64,000 bases of DNA from the NCBI GenBank assembly GCA_019635875.1, contig JAHBYP010000002.1, positions 992,001 through 1,056,000 of the forward strand, written 5' to 3'. Positions 10,101 to 40,524 of the stretch are shown here, piece by piece. The translations under genes were made by a program, and so were the position numbers. Every line of letters starts with the position of its first letter. Positions within the stretch are counted from its first letter, which is position 1. The notes below the pieces were generated by a model. The model saw only the letters and a program-made list of their open reading frames with translations, ran no database searches and was not told where the DNA came from. The DNA comes from Alphaproteobacteria bacterium. GTDB taxonomy: Bacteria > Pseudomonadota > Alphaproteobacteria > Reyranellales > Reyranellaceae.

Positions 10101-10126
10101 GTCATGCCTCCCAAGCAAGTCTCTTG

Positions 10127-10250
10127 CCTTCCCCCGGAGGGGGAAGGTGGCGCGCGCAGCGCGACGGATGGGGGATGTCTCAACGAAATCGGTGTTCGTC
10201 TTCGACATCCCCCATCCGCCCTTCGGGCACCTTCCCCCTCCGGGGGAAGG
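10127..10250. repeat. Intergenic repeat, family B copy 2
   Basis: Same design as 1313-1434, with end hairpins of the CCTTCCCCC/GGGGGAAGG type. It lies between the aconitase stop and the start of the oxidoreductase, both on the minus strand. Confidence 0.85.
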
Positions 10251-27366: not shown

Positions 27367-27377
27367 TCCATCCAATA

Positions 27378-27501
27378 CCTTCCCCCGGAGGGGGAAGGTG
27401 CCCGAAGGGCGGATGGGGGATGTCGAAGCCGGATATCGATGTCGTTGAAACATCTCCCATCCGTCGCGCTGCGCGCGCCACCTTCCCCCTCCGGGGGAAG
27501 G
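27378..27501. repeat. Intergenic repeat, family B copy 3, inside the Liv operon
   Basis: CCTTCCCCC-GGAG hairpins at both ends with inverted CGGATGGG arms, as at 1313 and 10127. It separates the binding protein from the LivF-like ATPase. Confidence 0.85.
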
Positions 27502-33790: not shown

Positions 33791-36409
33791 ATGGCCAGCG
33801 CCGCCCGTTCGTACGCCGAGGTCGATTTCGACAACCGGCCCACGCTCAGCTTCTACCTCTCGGTCGGCCTCGTCGCCGGCGCCATCATCGCCCTGCAGAT
33901 CGGCATCATGCGGCTGTTCTCGGTCGGCAGCTGGGCGCATTTCGGCTCGCTGGTGGTCAGCCTGGCGATGTTCGGCTTCGGGCTCACCAGCGCCATCATG
34001 TGCGTCGGCAAGACCTGGTTCGAGCGCCACTGGCGCGGCACGGTGAAGATCGCGCTTCTGCTGTTCGGCCCGATGATGGTGGCCTCCAGCCTGGTCGCCC
34101 AGCTGGTGCCGTTCAACGCCATCTTCCTGGTCTCCGACCCGATGCAGAAGTGGCGGCTGTTCGCCAATTTCATCCTCTATTTCCTGCCCTTCCTGTGCGG
34201 CGCCTTCTATCTCGGCGTCGTGTTCCTCAGGGCGCAGAAGACCTTCAATCGCGTCTACTTCGCCGACCTCGCGGGCTCCGGCGGCTGCGGGCTGATGTTC
34301 CTGCTGGCGATGTACGTCTTCACGCCCGAGGACCTGGTGGTCGCGCCGCTGGCGTTGTGGCTTGTGGGTACCGTCCTGTGGTTCGTCGCCGTCGGCGACA
34401 GGCGCGGAATCGCCCAGACGGTTGTTGCGGCAATCCTTGCCGTCGGCGCGCATTTCCTGCTGCCCGGCATGCTGGGCACGCCCAAGCTGTTCGTCTCCGA
34501 GTACAAGGGCGTGTCCTACGCGCGCAACTTCCCCGACGCGCAGCGCGTCTACAAGACGACGTCGCCGTTCGGGTTCATGGAGGTCTATTCGTCCTCCTAC
34601 CTGCACTTCGCGCCGGGGCTCAGCGACAACGCCGGCTTCAACCTGCCGAAGATGCCGAGCAATGCCTATCTCGGCCTCTACCTCGACAGCGAGGGACCGA
34701 CCGGCGTGATGAAGGATCTGCCGTCCGACGAGATCGGTTATTTCCGCTTCCTGTCGATGTACTACCCGTATGTGCTGAAGAAGGATCCCGATGTCTTCGT
34801 CGTGCAGTTCGGCGGCGGCATCTCGACCAAGGTGGCGCTGCGCTCCGGCGCCAGGCGCGTGACGGTGGCCGAGGGCAACCCGATGCTGCTGCGCGCTTTC
34901 CTCGGCGACACGCCGCTGCGCTCCTTCACTAGCGACATCCTGCGCGAGAAAGGCGTCGAGGTGATCGACTACGACGGCCGCCTGTACGCCGCCGGCACCA
35001 CCGCGCGCTTCGACATCGTCGATCTCAGCCTCGCGGACTCCGCCGGCCTGTCCTCGCCCGGCGGCTTTCCGATCGTCGAGAAATTCGGCTACACGCGCGA
35101 GGCCATGCGCAACTACATGCGCGTGCTCAAGCCTGGCGGACTCCTGTCGGTGACGCTCTGGAACAAGGAAGAGCCGCCCAAGTCGGTGCTGAAGCTCTAT
35201 GCCACCATGGTGGCGGCAGCGCGCGACATAGATGGCGGCGAGGTGAAGGGTCGCTTCTTCGCGACCTCGACCTATCTGTCGACCGCGACGGTGCTCTACA
35301 AGCGCGGCGACTTCACGCCCGAGGAGATCGAGGCGCTGCGCAAGCATTCGCGCCTGATGTCGTTCGACGAGATCTACTATCCCGGCATCGCCTACGACGA
35401 CGGCCCGCGCGCCGAGACCTTGAGGGGCTATCGCGCGCAGTTCTTCGGTGACGGCTCGCAGGATCCGGCCGACGGCAAGGAGCCGGCGCCGGCTGCCGCG
35501 CCGACCACCAATCCGGCGGTGCCCGTCATGCCGGCGACCATCATGGGCCGTATCGCCTGGCACCACCTGATTCATGGCGGCTGGGACAAGATCGCCGACG
35601 CCTACGTCTTCGACACGCGCGTGCTGACCAACCACCAGCCGTACTTCGCCGCCTACATCAAGGTGAAGGATCTCTGGGCGTTCACCGACCGGCTCGAGAC
35701 GGTGCAGGACGAGTGGGGCTACTTGCTGCTGTGGGCGACGCTCGGCATCGCCGCGATCGCGGCGCTGTCGCTGGTACTGTTCCCCGTGGTGTTCGGCTGG
35801 CGCACGATCTTCAGCCACTACCCCGGCAAGTTCAGCACCATGATCTATTTCCTGTGCCTGGGGCTGGGCTACATCATCGTCGAGGTCGGCATGATCAGCC
35901 ATTTCATCCTGGCGTTGAGCAACCCGACGGTCTCGGCCTCGGTGCTGATCACCGGCATGCTGGTATTCTCCGGCCTCGGCAGCTTCGTGTCGGAACGCTA
36001 TCTTGCGCGCGCGCGTACGGTGATGCCCAGGGTGTTCCTCGCCATCGGCGCGATCCTCGTTGCCTACGCCTTCCTGCTCGATTCCGTGCTCGACACCATC
36101 GGCACCTGGCCCTACGTGCTGCGCATCGTCGCCTGCCTGGCGCTGATCTTCCCGCCCGCCTTCCTGATGGGCTTCCCGATGCCGGTCGCGATGACCACGC
36201 TGGGCCGGCTGGGCAAGGACCACATGTTCCTGTGGGCCTGGGGCATCAACGGCAGCTTCTCGGTGCTGGGCGCCGCACTGGTGCCGATCATCTCGACCTC
36301 GTTCGGCCTGCCGGCCGTCGTGCTGGTCGGCGCCGTCGCCTATGTCGTGGCGCTGCCGGCCTTCTTCCGTGTCCTGCTGCCGCTGCCCGGGCGGCCGGCA
36401 GTCGCGTGA
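33791..36409 (+). CDS. Polytopic membrane protein with a spermidine-synthase-like domain
   Basis: An 872-residue inner-membrane protein. About six hydrophobic segments lie within residues 20-240. A soluble middle part (about 260-600) resembles a spermidine-synthase Rossmann fold: Val-Gln-Phe-Gly-Gly-Gly-Ile-Ser then Val-Thr-Val-Ala-Glu-Gly-Asn-Pro, and Val-Leu-Lys-Pro-Gly-Gly. Six or more further helices end the protein. Acidic active-site residues of true SpeE are not all obvious, so catalysis on polyamines is doubtful; the fold identification is from family resemblance. No speD is nearby. It follows the exported PCMT-like gene across a terminator. Confidence 0.8.
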   Translation: MASAARSYAEVDFDNRPTLSFYLSVGLVAGAIIALQIGIMRLFSVGSWAHFGSLVVSLAMFGFGLTSAIMCVGKTWFERHWRGTVKIALLLFGPMMVASSLVAQLVPFNAIFLVSDPMQKWRLFANFILYFLPFLCGAFYLGVVFLRAQKTFNRVYFADLAGSGGCGLMFLLAMYVFTPEDLVVAPLALWLVGTVLWFVAVGDRRGIAQTVVAAILAVGAHFLLPGMLGTPKLFVSEYKGVSYARNFPDAQRVYKTTSPFGFMEVYSSSYLHFAPGLSDNAGFNLPKMPSNAYLGLYLDSEGPTGVMKDLPSDEIGYFRFLSMYYPYVLKKDPDVFVVQFGGGISTKVALRSGARRVTVAEGNPMLLRAFLGDTPLRSFTSDILREKGVEVIDYDGRLYAAGTTARFDIVDLSLADSAGLSSPGGFPIVEKFGYTREAMRNYMRVLKPGGLLSVTLWNKEEPPKSVLKLYATMVAAARDIDGGEVKGRFFATSTYLSTATVLYKRGDFTPEEIEALRKHSRLMSFDEIYYPGIAYDDGPRAETLRGYRAQFFGDGSQDPADGKEPAPAAAPTTNPAVPVMPATIMGRIAWHHLIHGGWDKIADAYVFDTRVLTNHQPYFAAYIKVKDLWAFTDRLETVQDEWGYLLLWATLGIAAIAALSLVLFPVVFGWRTIFSHYPGKFSTMIYFLCLGLGYIIVEVGMISHFILALSNPTVSASVLITGMLVFSGLGSFVSERYLARARTVMPRVFLAIGAILVAYAFLLDSVLDTIGTWPYVLRIVACLALIFPPAFLMGFPMPVAMTTLGRLGKDHMFLWAWGINGSFSVLGAALVPIISTSFGLPAVVLVGAVAYVVALPAFFRVLLPLPGRPAVA

Positions 36410-36413
36410 TGCC

Positions 36414-37538
36414 GTGGCGGCGCGCACGCGACGCGCGCTGATGGCGGCCGTGGCCGGCCTGCTCGCCGGCGGCCTCGCCGCCGGCGCGTTCGCGCGGCCA
36501 TCCAAGCAGCGGCCGCCCAATCAGCGGCCGATCCGGCTGCGGCCCGCCGACCCCCTGGCGGTCGTCAGGACGCCGGTGACGCGCCTTCAGGCCTTCAAGT
36601 ACGGGCCTTTTCCCTACAGCGGGCCGGCGGAGGACGGGCGGCGGCCGTTCTACGATGTGGCTGACGGCCGCAAGCGCCGCGGGCGTCGTACACCATCCGG
36701 CGAGGTGCTTTGGGAGGACACGACCTTCGGCGACAATCGCGTGCTGCTGCACGTGCCGGCGGGCTTCGATCCGCGGCGGCCGGCGCTGATGGTGTTCTTC
36801 TTCCACGGTCACGGCTCGATCATTGAGCGCACGGTGACGGCCGACACCGGTCTGCTGCGCCAGCTCGCCGAGTCGGGGGCCAACGCGGTGCTGGTCGCGC
36901 CGCAATTCGCCTATGACGCCGCCGATTCGAGTCCGGGCAAATTCTTGCGTCCCGGTGCCTTCGCCAGGTTCATCGACGAGACGGCGGCGAGGCTCGCCCA
37001 GCTGATGACGCCGTCGGGCACGAGCCTTCGGCCGCTGTCGGGCGTGTTCAACAAGGCGCCGGTGATGCTGGTGGCGTTCAGCGGCGGCTACAAGCCGGCC
37101 GCCTACGTGCTGACGCGCGGCGGCGCGGCGCATCGCATCCACAGTCTCGTGCTGCTCGACGCGCTGTACGACGAGGAGGACAAGTTCGCAGCCTGGTTCG
37201 CCCGCGCGCGGCCGCGCTCCTTCCTCGCCAGCCTGTACACGGAATCGACGGCAGCGAATCAGACGAAGCTGCGCAACCTGCTGGCGAGGCGCCGGATCGC
37301 CAGCACCTCGTCCTTGCCCGCGAGCCTCTCGCGCGGCACCGCGGCGTTCGTCGCATCGGGCAGCATCGACCGGCATGCGCGCTTCGTGCTCGAGGGCCCG
37401 CCGCGCGACCCGGTCAAGACGATCCTGGCGGCGACCCCGGGCTATCGCATGAAGCCCGAGCCGCCGCCGGCCAGGCCGGCGAAGCCGCCGACCAAGCCGG
37501 TTTCAAAGCGTCAGCGCGGACGACCGGCGAAGCGCTGA
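36414..37538 (+). CDS. Exported protein of unknown family with hydrolase-like features
   Basis: A 374-residue protein starting at GTG 36414: Ala-Ala-Arg-Thr-Arg-Arg-Ala-Leu gives the charged n-region of a signal peptide that continues to Gly-Ala-Phe-Ala. Starting at ATG 36441 would lose that n-region. The body has Val-Phe-Phe-Phe-His-Gly-His-Gly-Ser and Val-Ala-Phe-Ser-Gly-Gly-Tyr, which look like an oxyanion loop and a nucleophile elbow of an alpha/beta hydrolase, but I cannot name the family. The last 35 residues are Pro/Lys/Arg-rich. The start lies three bases after the upstream stop, so translation may be coupled; the 3' end overlaps the helicase gene by 28 bases. Confidence 0.65.
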   Translation: MAARTRRALMAAVAGLLAGGLAAGAFARPSKQRPPNQRPIRLRPADPLAVVRTPVTRLQAFKYGPFPYSGPAEDGRRPFYDVADGRKRRGRRTPSGEVLWEDTTFGDNRVLLHVPAGFDPRRPALMVFFFHGHGSIIERTVTADTGLLRQLAESGANAVLVAPQFAYDAADSSPGKFLRPGAFARFIDETAARLAQLMTPSGTSLRPLSGVFNKAPVMLVAFSGGYKPAAYVLTRGGAAHRIHSLVLLDALYDEEDKFAAWFARARPRSFLASLYTESTAANQTKLRNLLARRRIASTSSLPASLSRGTAAFVASGSIDRHARFVLEGPPRDPVKTILAATPGYRMKPEPPPARPAKPPTKPVSKRQRGRPAKR

Positions 37539-39204: not shown

Positions 39205-40524
39205 ATGTCCACGATGAACGCACTCCACATCTCCGCGCCGTGGTGGAAGCCCGACGCCGGCCGCACCTTGCTGATCCGAGGCGGCCGGCCGCTGGTCGGC
39301 ACCTATTCGATCAGTGGCGCCAAGAATGCGGCGCTGCCCCTGATGGTCTCGGCGCTGCTGACACCGCACCTCGTGACGCTGCACAACCTGCCGGCCAATC
39401 TCGATGTCGCGGTGCTCTCGGCGCTGCTGCAGCGGCTGGGCGCGAACCTCGGCTGGTCCAATGGCACGGCGGGACTGTCGCTCACCATCTGTGCCGACCG
39501 CGTGCACGCTGCCAGGATCGATCGCGAGCTGGTGGCGCGCATGCGCGCCTCGGTGCTGCTGCTGGGCGCGATGCTGGCGCGCTGCGGTGAGGCCAGCCTG
39601 CCGCTGCCCGGTGGCGATGCCATCGGCCTGCGTGGCATCGACTTCCACATCGCCGGCCTGCGCGCCATGGGCGCCACGGTCGAGCTCGAGGGTGGCCTGA
39701 TCCACGCCCGTGCGCCGCACGGTCTGAAGGGTGCCGAGATCGGCCTGCCGCTGCCCTCGGTGGGCGCGACCGAGAACCTGCTGCTGGCCGCGGTGCTGGC
39801 GAGCGGCCGCACAATCATCCGCAACGCCGCGCGCGAGCCGGAGATCACCGACCTTGCGTCCTGCCTGATCGCCATGGGCGCACGCATCGGCGGCCTCGAT
39901 ACGCATGTGCTGACAATCGATGGCGGCCGGCCGCTCGCCGGCGCGGTGCATACGGTGATGCCCGATCGCATCGAGACCGGCACGCTCGCCTGCGCGGCGG
40001 CGATCACCGGCGGTACGCTGAACCTGCGCAACGCGCGCCTCGACCTGCTGGGCGCGGCCGGGCCGGCGCTGCAGGCGGCCGGCGTCGAGCTGGAGACGGT
40101 CGATGGTGGCGTGGTGGCGCGCCGCGCGGCGGGCGGCACCGTAGGCGTCGACGTCACGACGCAGCCCTATCCCGGCTTCGCCACCGACCTGCAGGCGCCG
40201 TTCATGGCGCTGATGGCCACGGCGCAGAGCGCCAGCGCGATCACCGAGGCGATCTTCGAGCAGCGCTTCCGTCATGTCGACGAATTGCGCCGCATGGGCG
40301 CCAACATCGTCGTGCGCGGGCGCACCGCGCTGGTGCGCGGCGTGCCGATGCTCGGCGCTGCCGCGGTCACCGGCACGGATGTCCGGGCCGCGGCGGCACT
40401 GGCAATCGCCGCCCTGGGCGCGCGGGGCGAGACCGTGCTCGACGGCCTCGACCACCTCGACCGCGGCTATGACGGCATGGCCGCCCGGCTGGCCGCCTGC
40501 GGCGCCGATGTAAGCCGCGCCTGA
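39205..40524 (+). CDS. murA: UDP-N-acetylglucosamine 1-carboxyvinyltransferase with Cys-to-Asp active site
   Basis: A 439-residue EPSP-synthase-fold enzyme that adds enolpyruvate to UDP-GlcNAc, the first step of peptidoglycan precursor synthesis. Ser-Gly-Ala-Lys-Asn-Ala-Ala-Leu-Pro (Lys22 region), Asn-Ala-Ala-Arg-Glu-Pro-Glu-Ile, Pro-Asp-Arg-Ile-Glu-Thr-Gly-Thr and Thr-Asp-Leu-Gln-Ala-Pro-Phe (catalytic Asp region) are kept. The loop that carries Cys115 in E. coli reads Pro-Gly-Gly-Asp138-Ala-Ile-Gly. Asp at this place, as in mycobacterial MurA, removes the fosfomycin target. The N-terminus is about 20 residues longer than E. coli MurA. Whether it is the only copy is unknown. Confidence 0.92.
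   Translation: MSTMNALHISAPWWKPDAGRTLLIRGGRPLVGTYSISGAKNAALPLMVSALLTPHLVTLHNLPANLDVAVLSALLQRLGANLGWSNGTAGLSLTICADRVHAARIDRELVARMRASVLLLGAMLARCGEASLPLPGGDAIGLRGIDFHIAGLRAMGATVELEGGLIHARAPHGLKGAEIGLPLPSVGATENLLLAAVLASGRTIIRNAAREPEITDLASCLIAMGARIGGLDTHVLTIDGGRPLAGAVHTVMPDRIETGTLACAAAITGGTLNLRNARLDLLGAAGPALQAAGVELETVDGGVVARRAAGGTVGVDVTTQPYPGFATDLQAPFMALMATAQSASAITEAIFEQRFRHVDELRRMGANIVVRGRTALVRGVPMLGAAAVTGTDVRAAAALAIAALGARGETVLDGLDHLDRGYDGMAARLAACGADVSRA

Follow-up and report, generated by a model that had tools for sequence, protein, structure and literature searches.

The window analysed here, 64,000 nucleotides of a genome of the family Reyranellaceae, carries a murA gene in which the active-site Cys of the enzyme is replaced by Asp. 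The gene is an accessory MurA paralogue: a Cys-type MurA is encoded elsewhere in the same genome, and the organism does not depend on the Asp-type copy alone. It belongs to a clade marked by an N-terminal Pro-Trp-Trp tail and is under purifying selection. We consider it rather likely that the product functions as an enolpyruvyl transferase, escapes fosfomycin and other thiol-directed inhibitors, and backs up the Cys-type MurA.

Identity, residues and fold of the Asp-type MurA

The gene and its elements are listed below with their positions in the window; residue equivalences come from an alignment to E. coli MurA (NC_000913 b3189).

39205..40524, + strand: murA paralogue of Asp type, 439 aa, UDP-GlcNAc 1-carboxyvinyltransferase family (TIGR01072, PF00275, AlphaFold2 and PDB matches)
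39238..39246, + strand: Pro-Trp-Trp, residues 12–14, in a clade-specific N-terminal extension (27/27 clade members compared)
39322..39324, + strand: Lys40, equivalent to E. coli Lys22
39607..39636, + strand: catalytic loop PGGDAIGLRG (E. coli 112–121), with the clade changes C115D, A119L and P121G
39616..39618, + strand: GAT codon of Asp138, at the E. coli Cys115 position
40186..40188, + strand: Asp328, equivalent to E. coli Asp305
40462..40464, + strand: Arg420, equivalent to E. coli Arg397

The window protein scores 474 bits against the MurA equivalog model TIGR01072, above its cut-off of 392.7, and also matches PF00275 in a Pfam search. Its AlphaFold2 model has a mean pLDDT of 91.8, with values below 50 only in loop 137–142. 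When this model was used in a structure search, the first 43 of the 50 PDB rows listed were MurA (TMq 0.85–0.92), with NikO at 0.86 and AroA/EPSP synthases at 0.57–0.79 in the same listing, which points to a MurA fold rather than to that of an EPSP synthase.

The initial annotation had read the loop as P-G-G-D-A-I-G, with Asp in place of the active-site Cys and the equivalents of Lys22, Asp305 and Arg397 retained, and the alignment bears out both readings. The equivalents of Asn23, Asp49, Arg91, Arg120, His125, Arg331, Asp369, Arg371 and His394 are likewise identical to those of E. coli MurA, with the catalytic set Lys22, Asn23, Arg91, Arg120, Asp305, Arg331, Asp369 and Arg397 thus kept in full; Lys160 and Val161 are replaced by Leu and Pro. 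Ten residues of E. coli MurA are given as the least mutation-tolerant in the accessible text of a deep mutational scan (PMC9842644), and nine of them are identical in the window protein, Cys115 being the only exception. Asp138 does not result from chance or from a sequencing error, since Asp is present in all 21 full-length window-type matches from the family (one of which, in G051, has an in-frame stop elsewhere) and Cys in all 29 Cys-type family loci compared.

Elsewhere in the window, a dispersed repeat of about 130 bases occurs at 10123–10250 and 27376–27501. A query containing it matched four genomes of the same genus 79–88 times each, the matches listed being mostly to the repeat, and one copy folds as a long, highly stable hairpin (−101.4 kcal/mol, z −11.9); the repeat is MITE- or REP-like. 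Two long ORFs near an rhlE-like helicase gene (33791–36406 and 36342–37535, + strand) have no NCBIfam or Pfam match and are either shadow ORFs in GC-rich DNA or unannotated genes.

A second, Cys-type MurA and the distribution of both types

The assembly that contains the window is 100% complete with 0.43% contamination, and searching it revealed a stronger MurA match at C10:80813-82084, with 575 bits and the loop PGGCAIG. This gene sits in a dcd-murA-DUF2948-hisG-hisD locus, between dcd and DUF2948-hisG-hisD, with the names of its neighbours backed by the family models TIGR02274, PF11164, TIGR00070 and TIGR00069; dcd lies immediately upstream of murA in 11/11 alphaproteobacterial Cys-type loci compared. 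Two weaker matches in the genome are AroA-type EPSP synthases, both over the TIGR01356 cut-off (L003 1489-2952 on C2 and L004 679-1971 on C4, both on the − strand, with 331.5 and 354.3 bits). The initial annotation had predicted intrinsic fosfomycin resistance on the supposition that the Asp-type enzyme is the only MurA, and had named an essential Cys-type copy as one thing that would overturn it. The Cys-type gene rules out the sole-MurA reading for this genome, and with it intrinsic resistance by way of a sole Asp-type MurA. That the Cys-type copy is the essential one is suggested by its presence in 67/75 genomes of the family, partials counted, against 23 for the window type.

The 23 window-type genes in the 75 Reyranellaceae genomes comprise 21 full-length copies, one in two pieces (G009) and one partial at a contig end (G047); one genome of the family encodes an Asp-type protein with the same sequence as that of Reyranella soli. 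Twenty of the 23 genomes also carry the Cys type, at 51–56% identity. The other three, G003, G055 and G060, have the window type only, and they also lack dcd, and G003 hisD as well, so they are read as assembly gaps and a real loss of the Cys-type copy is discounted. In G009, the Asp-type copy (C40, L055 1400-2800) is broken by a stop at the first Trp of Pro-Trp-Trp and by a frameshift, and a full-length Cys-type gene is present elsewhere; in G051 (L170, L082), the copy carries its single in-frame stop. The Asp-type gene is either dispensable in these two genomes or wrongly assembled there.

The clade is also found in named Acetobacteraceae and Acidocellaceae. Among 80 loci kept from 130 in GTDB genomes, 12 belong to it, with 69–87% identity: two Reyranella (one a MAG), Limobrevibacterium, Plastoroseomonas, Acidisphaera, two Acidisoma, a MAG filed under Rhodovastum and MAGs with no genus name. 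When 120 loci, some genes among them occurring twice, were aligned together with two reference proteins, Asp stood in 21 rows, Cys in 100 and a gap in 1. Nine genomes stand behind 9 of the 12 loci, and eight of these also have a Cys-type MurA. The exception is Acidisphaera sp. S103 (G095, a draft isolate assembly), where the clade member is the only MurA found; in this draft, dcd lies in the middle of a contig of 391 kb, and the 20 kb of sequence read about it contain no match to MurA. Plasmid carriage was also considered: 122 plasmid records have a MurA match, all below 60% identity, and seven examined out of 30 listed are of the Cys type, two of them annotated beside DUF2948.

Asp-type MurAs occur more widely in Alphaproteobacteria. 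An Asp-loop pattern matched 14/385 genomes of the class, and 13 of these matches, the window genome included, are MurA; as the pattern fixes one codon set, 13/385 is a lower bound. The match in G210 was rejected, since locus L202, where it lies, does not match MurA. Six genomes yielded no MurA but the Asp type: G422, G123 (two contigs, 100% complete), G346, G216, G103 and G234 (79% complete). It adjoins dcd in G422, G123, G250, G346, G103 and G234, so the gene at the usual place carries Asp in these six. Several other arrangements were observed. G427 (94% complete, 6% contaminated) has two Asp-type MurAs, at C23:3777-5057 and C82:49391-50671, with no Cys type found. In G140, with coordinates C55:28643-29908 and C39:165459-166718, the Asp type stands beside DUF2948-hisG-hisD and a Cys-type copy lies elsewhere, the reverse of the window genome. 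G250, whose dcd-linked MurA is of the Asp type, also encodes a highly divergent MurA-like protein (C3:352745-353968, L233), 37% identical to the Cys type and with the loop PGGCKLG.

Clade-specific residues, descent and selection

When 27 clade members were compared with 53 Cys-type alphaproteobacterial MurAs, 24 columns proved to be fixed (≥95%) in the clade for a residue that ≤5% of the Cys-type proteins have. They include C115D, A119L, V161P, R391G and the N-terminal Pro-Trp-Trp, a region of gaps in all 53 Cys-type proteins. At P121, the end of the catalytic loop, 25/27 members have Gly and 2/27 Ala. The tail, whose blocks are modelled by AlphaFold2 at pLDDT 68 and 81, is present in L231 (G356), just outside the 27, and absent from L232 (G119), which among the Asp rows of the branch lies outermost. 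At the catalytic positions checked, every clade member with a residue there (26 or 27 of 27) has the same one. Position 119 is Ile or Leu in 35/42 Asp rows against 1/58 Cys rows, a coupling that is not significant, with only 3 independent pairs on well-supported branches.

Two trees were used. The first omits L007, L234, L228, L225, L227, L085, L017, L083 and L226, which are duplicates or partials, and the second also L233, which has a long branch. In the first, 32 Asp rows, L231 and L232 among them, form a branch with an SH-aLRT of 99, and the stem of the clade measures 0.42–0.67 changes per column. Asp/Cys changes within Alphaproteobacteria number six on the first tree and five on the second, where an AU test does not reject a single Asp clade (p 0.143).

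The Asp-type gene is under purifying selection: compared with its nearest orthologue, that of G003, the window gene has a dN of 0.088 and a dS of 0.43, a ratio of about 0.2, and against G004 and G011 the ratio is about 0.3, compared with about 0.25 for the Cys-type copies. Taken relative to the Cys type, the median replacement rate of the Asp type reaches 1.42 for the 28 pairs within Reyranellaceae and 1.25 for the 15 pairs inside the second group, but 0.85 for the 48 pairs between the two groups, with a mean identity of 67.6% for the Asp type versus 65.4% for the Cys type. With all 91 pairs pooled, the dN ratio between the copies has a median of 0.99 and a range of 0.64–3.45; the pattern shows at the level of the groups. 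Uniform vertical descent fits these ratios poorly and transfer between orders fits them, and the clade has therefore probably been exchanged between orders.

The gene neighbourhood offers little guidance to function. The window locus and its congener L075 have neighbours in common, as do L077, L082 and L083 with one another. Between the groups, the matches are weak and differently placed: a methyltransferase gene at 48–49% (window, L075 and L078), a dioxygenase at 32–34% (window, L075 and L079) and one pair at 41% (L076/L085). Among the matches listed in these comparisons (genes matching at least 2 other loci in one, up to four rows per pair of loci in the other), no neighbourhood is kept between genera, and a conserved neighbourhood was set aside as a clue.

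Proposed function, alternatives and known systems

According to the mechanism that we propose, the window enzyme would make enolpyruvyl-UDP-GlcNAc as an ordinary MurA does, with Asp138 taking over the general-acid role of Cys115. As it lacks a thiol at the site, neither fosfomycin nor other thiol-directed MurA inhibitors nor PEP could become covalently attached to it. If expressed beside the Cys-type MurA of the dcd locus, it could keep peptidoglycan synthesis running when the latter is blocked; a promoter scan, a weak test in this group, returned no sigma-70-like site. The precedent invoked by the initial annotation, that of active and fosfomycin-insensitive Asp-type MurAs, finds backing in the accessible text of two papers. 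E. coli C115D and the Asp-type enzymes of mycobacteria, chlamydiae and Borrelia are described as active and fosfomycin-resistant (PMC4790336), and an Asp-type MurA from soil conferred fosfomycin resistance on E. coli clones (PMC8066302). E. faecium C119D is a further precedent (PMC5652432, from the portion available). By analogy, fosfomycin insensitivity of the window enzyme is plausible. The sequence of the target does not in itself imply whole-cell resistance; nor does the Cys-type copy alone rule it out, as E. coli, in which the soil enzyme gave resistance, has its own Cys-type MurA. The clade member found as the only MurA of S103 counts in favour of a working enzyme, as do the other alphaproteobacteria whose sole MurA found is of the Asp type. 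Counted against it are the interrupted copies of G009 and G051 and the nonviability of C115D in E. coli in vivo, as given in the accessible text of PMC9842644.

Fosfomycin itself may not be the selecting agent. The importer model TIGR00881 (printed '2A0104'), which we take to be that of the GlpT/UhpT-type family, is above its cut-off in 0/75 genomes of the family and in 2/14 controls; this weakens the case for fosfomycin as the agent, and if whole cells are insensitive, poor uptake may be the cause. Natural inhibitors directed at Cys115 include cnicin and 6-tuliposide B (PMC9346081, from the part available).

The main rival reason for the substitution is the loss of the dormant complex, in which PEP is attached to the Cys and UDP-MurNAc occupies the site (available text of PMC9975281; titles of PDB entries 3su9, 3swd, 3swe and 8d84). 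The Asp would then serve regulation and not drug escape, providing a MurA free of this brake for use under particular conditions. The importer result suits such a role, which we nevertheless hold to be unlikely: C. difficile C116D was crystallised with UDP-N-acetylmuramic acid present, according to the title of 6q0a, so that an Asp enzyme may still bind it, and among the matches listed no regulatory neighbour is kept between genera. A decaying or functionless duplicate is very improbable, given the dN/dS of about 0.2 to the nearest orthologue and the catalytic residues checked, identical in 26 or 27 of 27 clade members, even if two of the 23 family copies are interrupted, unless by assembly errors, and the within-group median replacement rate is 1.25–1.42 times that of the Cys-type copies.

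The long stem branch and the 24 clade-specific columns, tail included, would also suit a different job, with another UDP-sugar as acceptor or with a protein partner engaged through the Pro-Trp-Trp tail, such as one that ties the enzyme to LpxC or uncouples it. In P. aeruginosa, LpxC is activated by MurA, and a subset of Rhodospirillales is predicted to have interacting pairs (available portion of PMC9995270). Yet the catalytic and substrate residues checked are all retained, and the sole MurA found in the S103 assembly should make the peptidoglycan precursor, which leaves a different job quite improbable. The positions assigned to P. aeruginosa Gly58 and Glu406 from the offset in numbering give no clean division between the two copies, and LpxC coupling was set aside; at the latter position, 17 of the 26 clade members with a residue there have Glu, and the window protein has Ala.

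Returning to a working backup enzyme, the published results on the Cys-to-Asp change in E. coli disagree between in vitro and in vivo, and differ in vitro as well: C115D is fully active according to the accessible text of PMC4790336 and more than 10-fold less efficient as cited in that of PMC5652432. The two paralogues of the window genome thus form a natural pair for asking what else the change needs in vivo. A bolder reading, doubtful at present but worth stating, takes the clade for a self-contained Asp-MurA that has spread horizontally. Permissive or regulatory parts, namely A119L, P121G and their neighbours together with the Pro-Trp-Trp tail, would let Asp115 work in vivo, and the enzyme would provide environmental alphaproteobacteria with a natural bypass around MurA inhibitors directed at the thiol. 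If true, the role given to the loop and tail would explain why C115D is active in vitro and yet reported as nonviable in E. coli, and a mobile bypass would add to the environmental pool of fosfomycin-insensitive targets seen in soil libraries. As a drug-sensitive MurA can be accompanied by an accessory one of the Asp type, predicting fosfomycin resistance from one murA gene is unsafe either way.

Among the matches listed in a search of titles and abstract openings of the open-licence literature, no Asp-type second MurA was found for Reyranellaceae or Acetobacteraceae, which is weak evidence of novelty. Asp-type MurA as such is already known, from soil libraries included; what seems to be new is the accessory, tailed clade. 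The MurAs of M. tuberculosis, C. trachomatis and B. burgdorferi likewise have Asp at the Cys115 position and are reported as active and fosfomycin-resistant (PMC4790336, accessible text); compared by description, the window enzyme differs from these three in being a second copy beside a Cys type and in its N-terminal tail and P121G. AEW1_Fos01, which is Mucilaginibacter-like and comes from a soil metagenome, is also an Asp-type MurA that gave fosfomycin resistance in E. coli clones and is about 92% identical to a Mucilaginibacter MurA (PMC8066302, accessible text, the comparison with the window protein again being by description). The laboratory mutants E. coli C115D, E. cloacae C115D and C. 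difficile C116D have the same substitution (available text of PMC4790336; titles of 3v4t, 4e7g and 6q0a), whereas the window enzyme is natural and carries co-occurring changes at 119, 121, 161 and elsewhere. Two MurA homologues per genome are also described for Firmicutes as MurAA/MurAB (MurA1/MurA2, MurZ; PMC12077105, from the part available); unlike in those pairs, one of the two copies in the window genome has Asp for the catalytic Cys and is accessory, being present in 23/75 genomes of the family.
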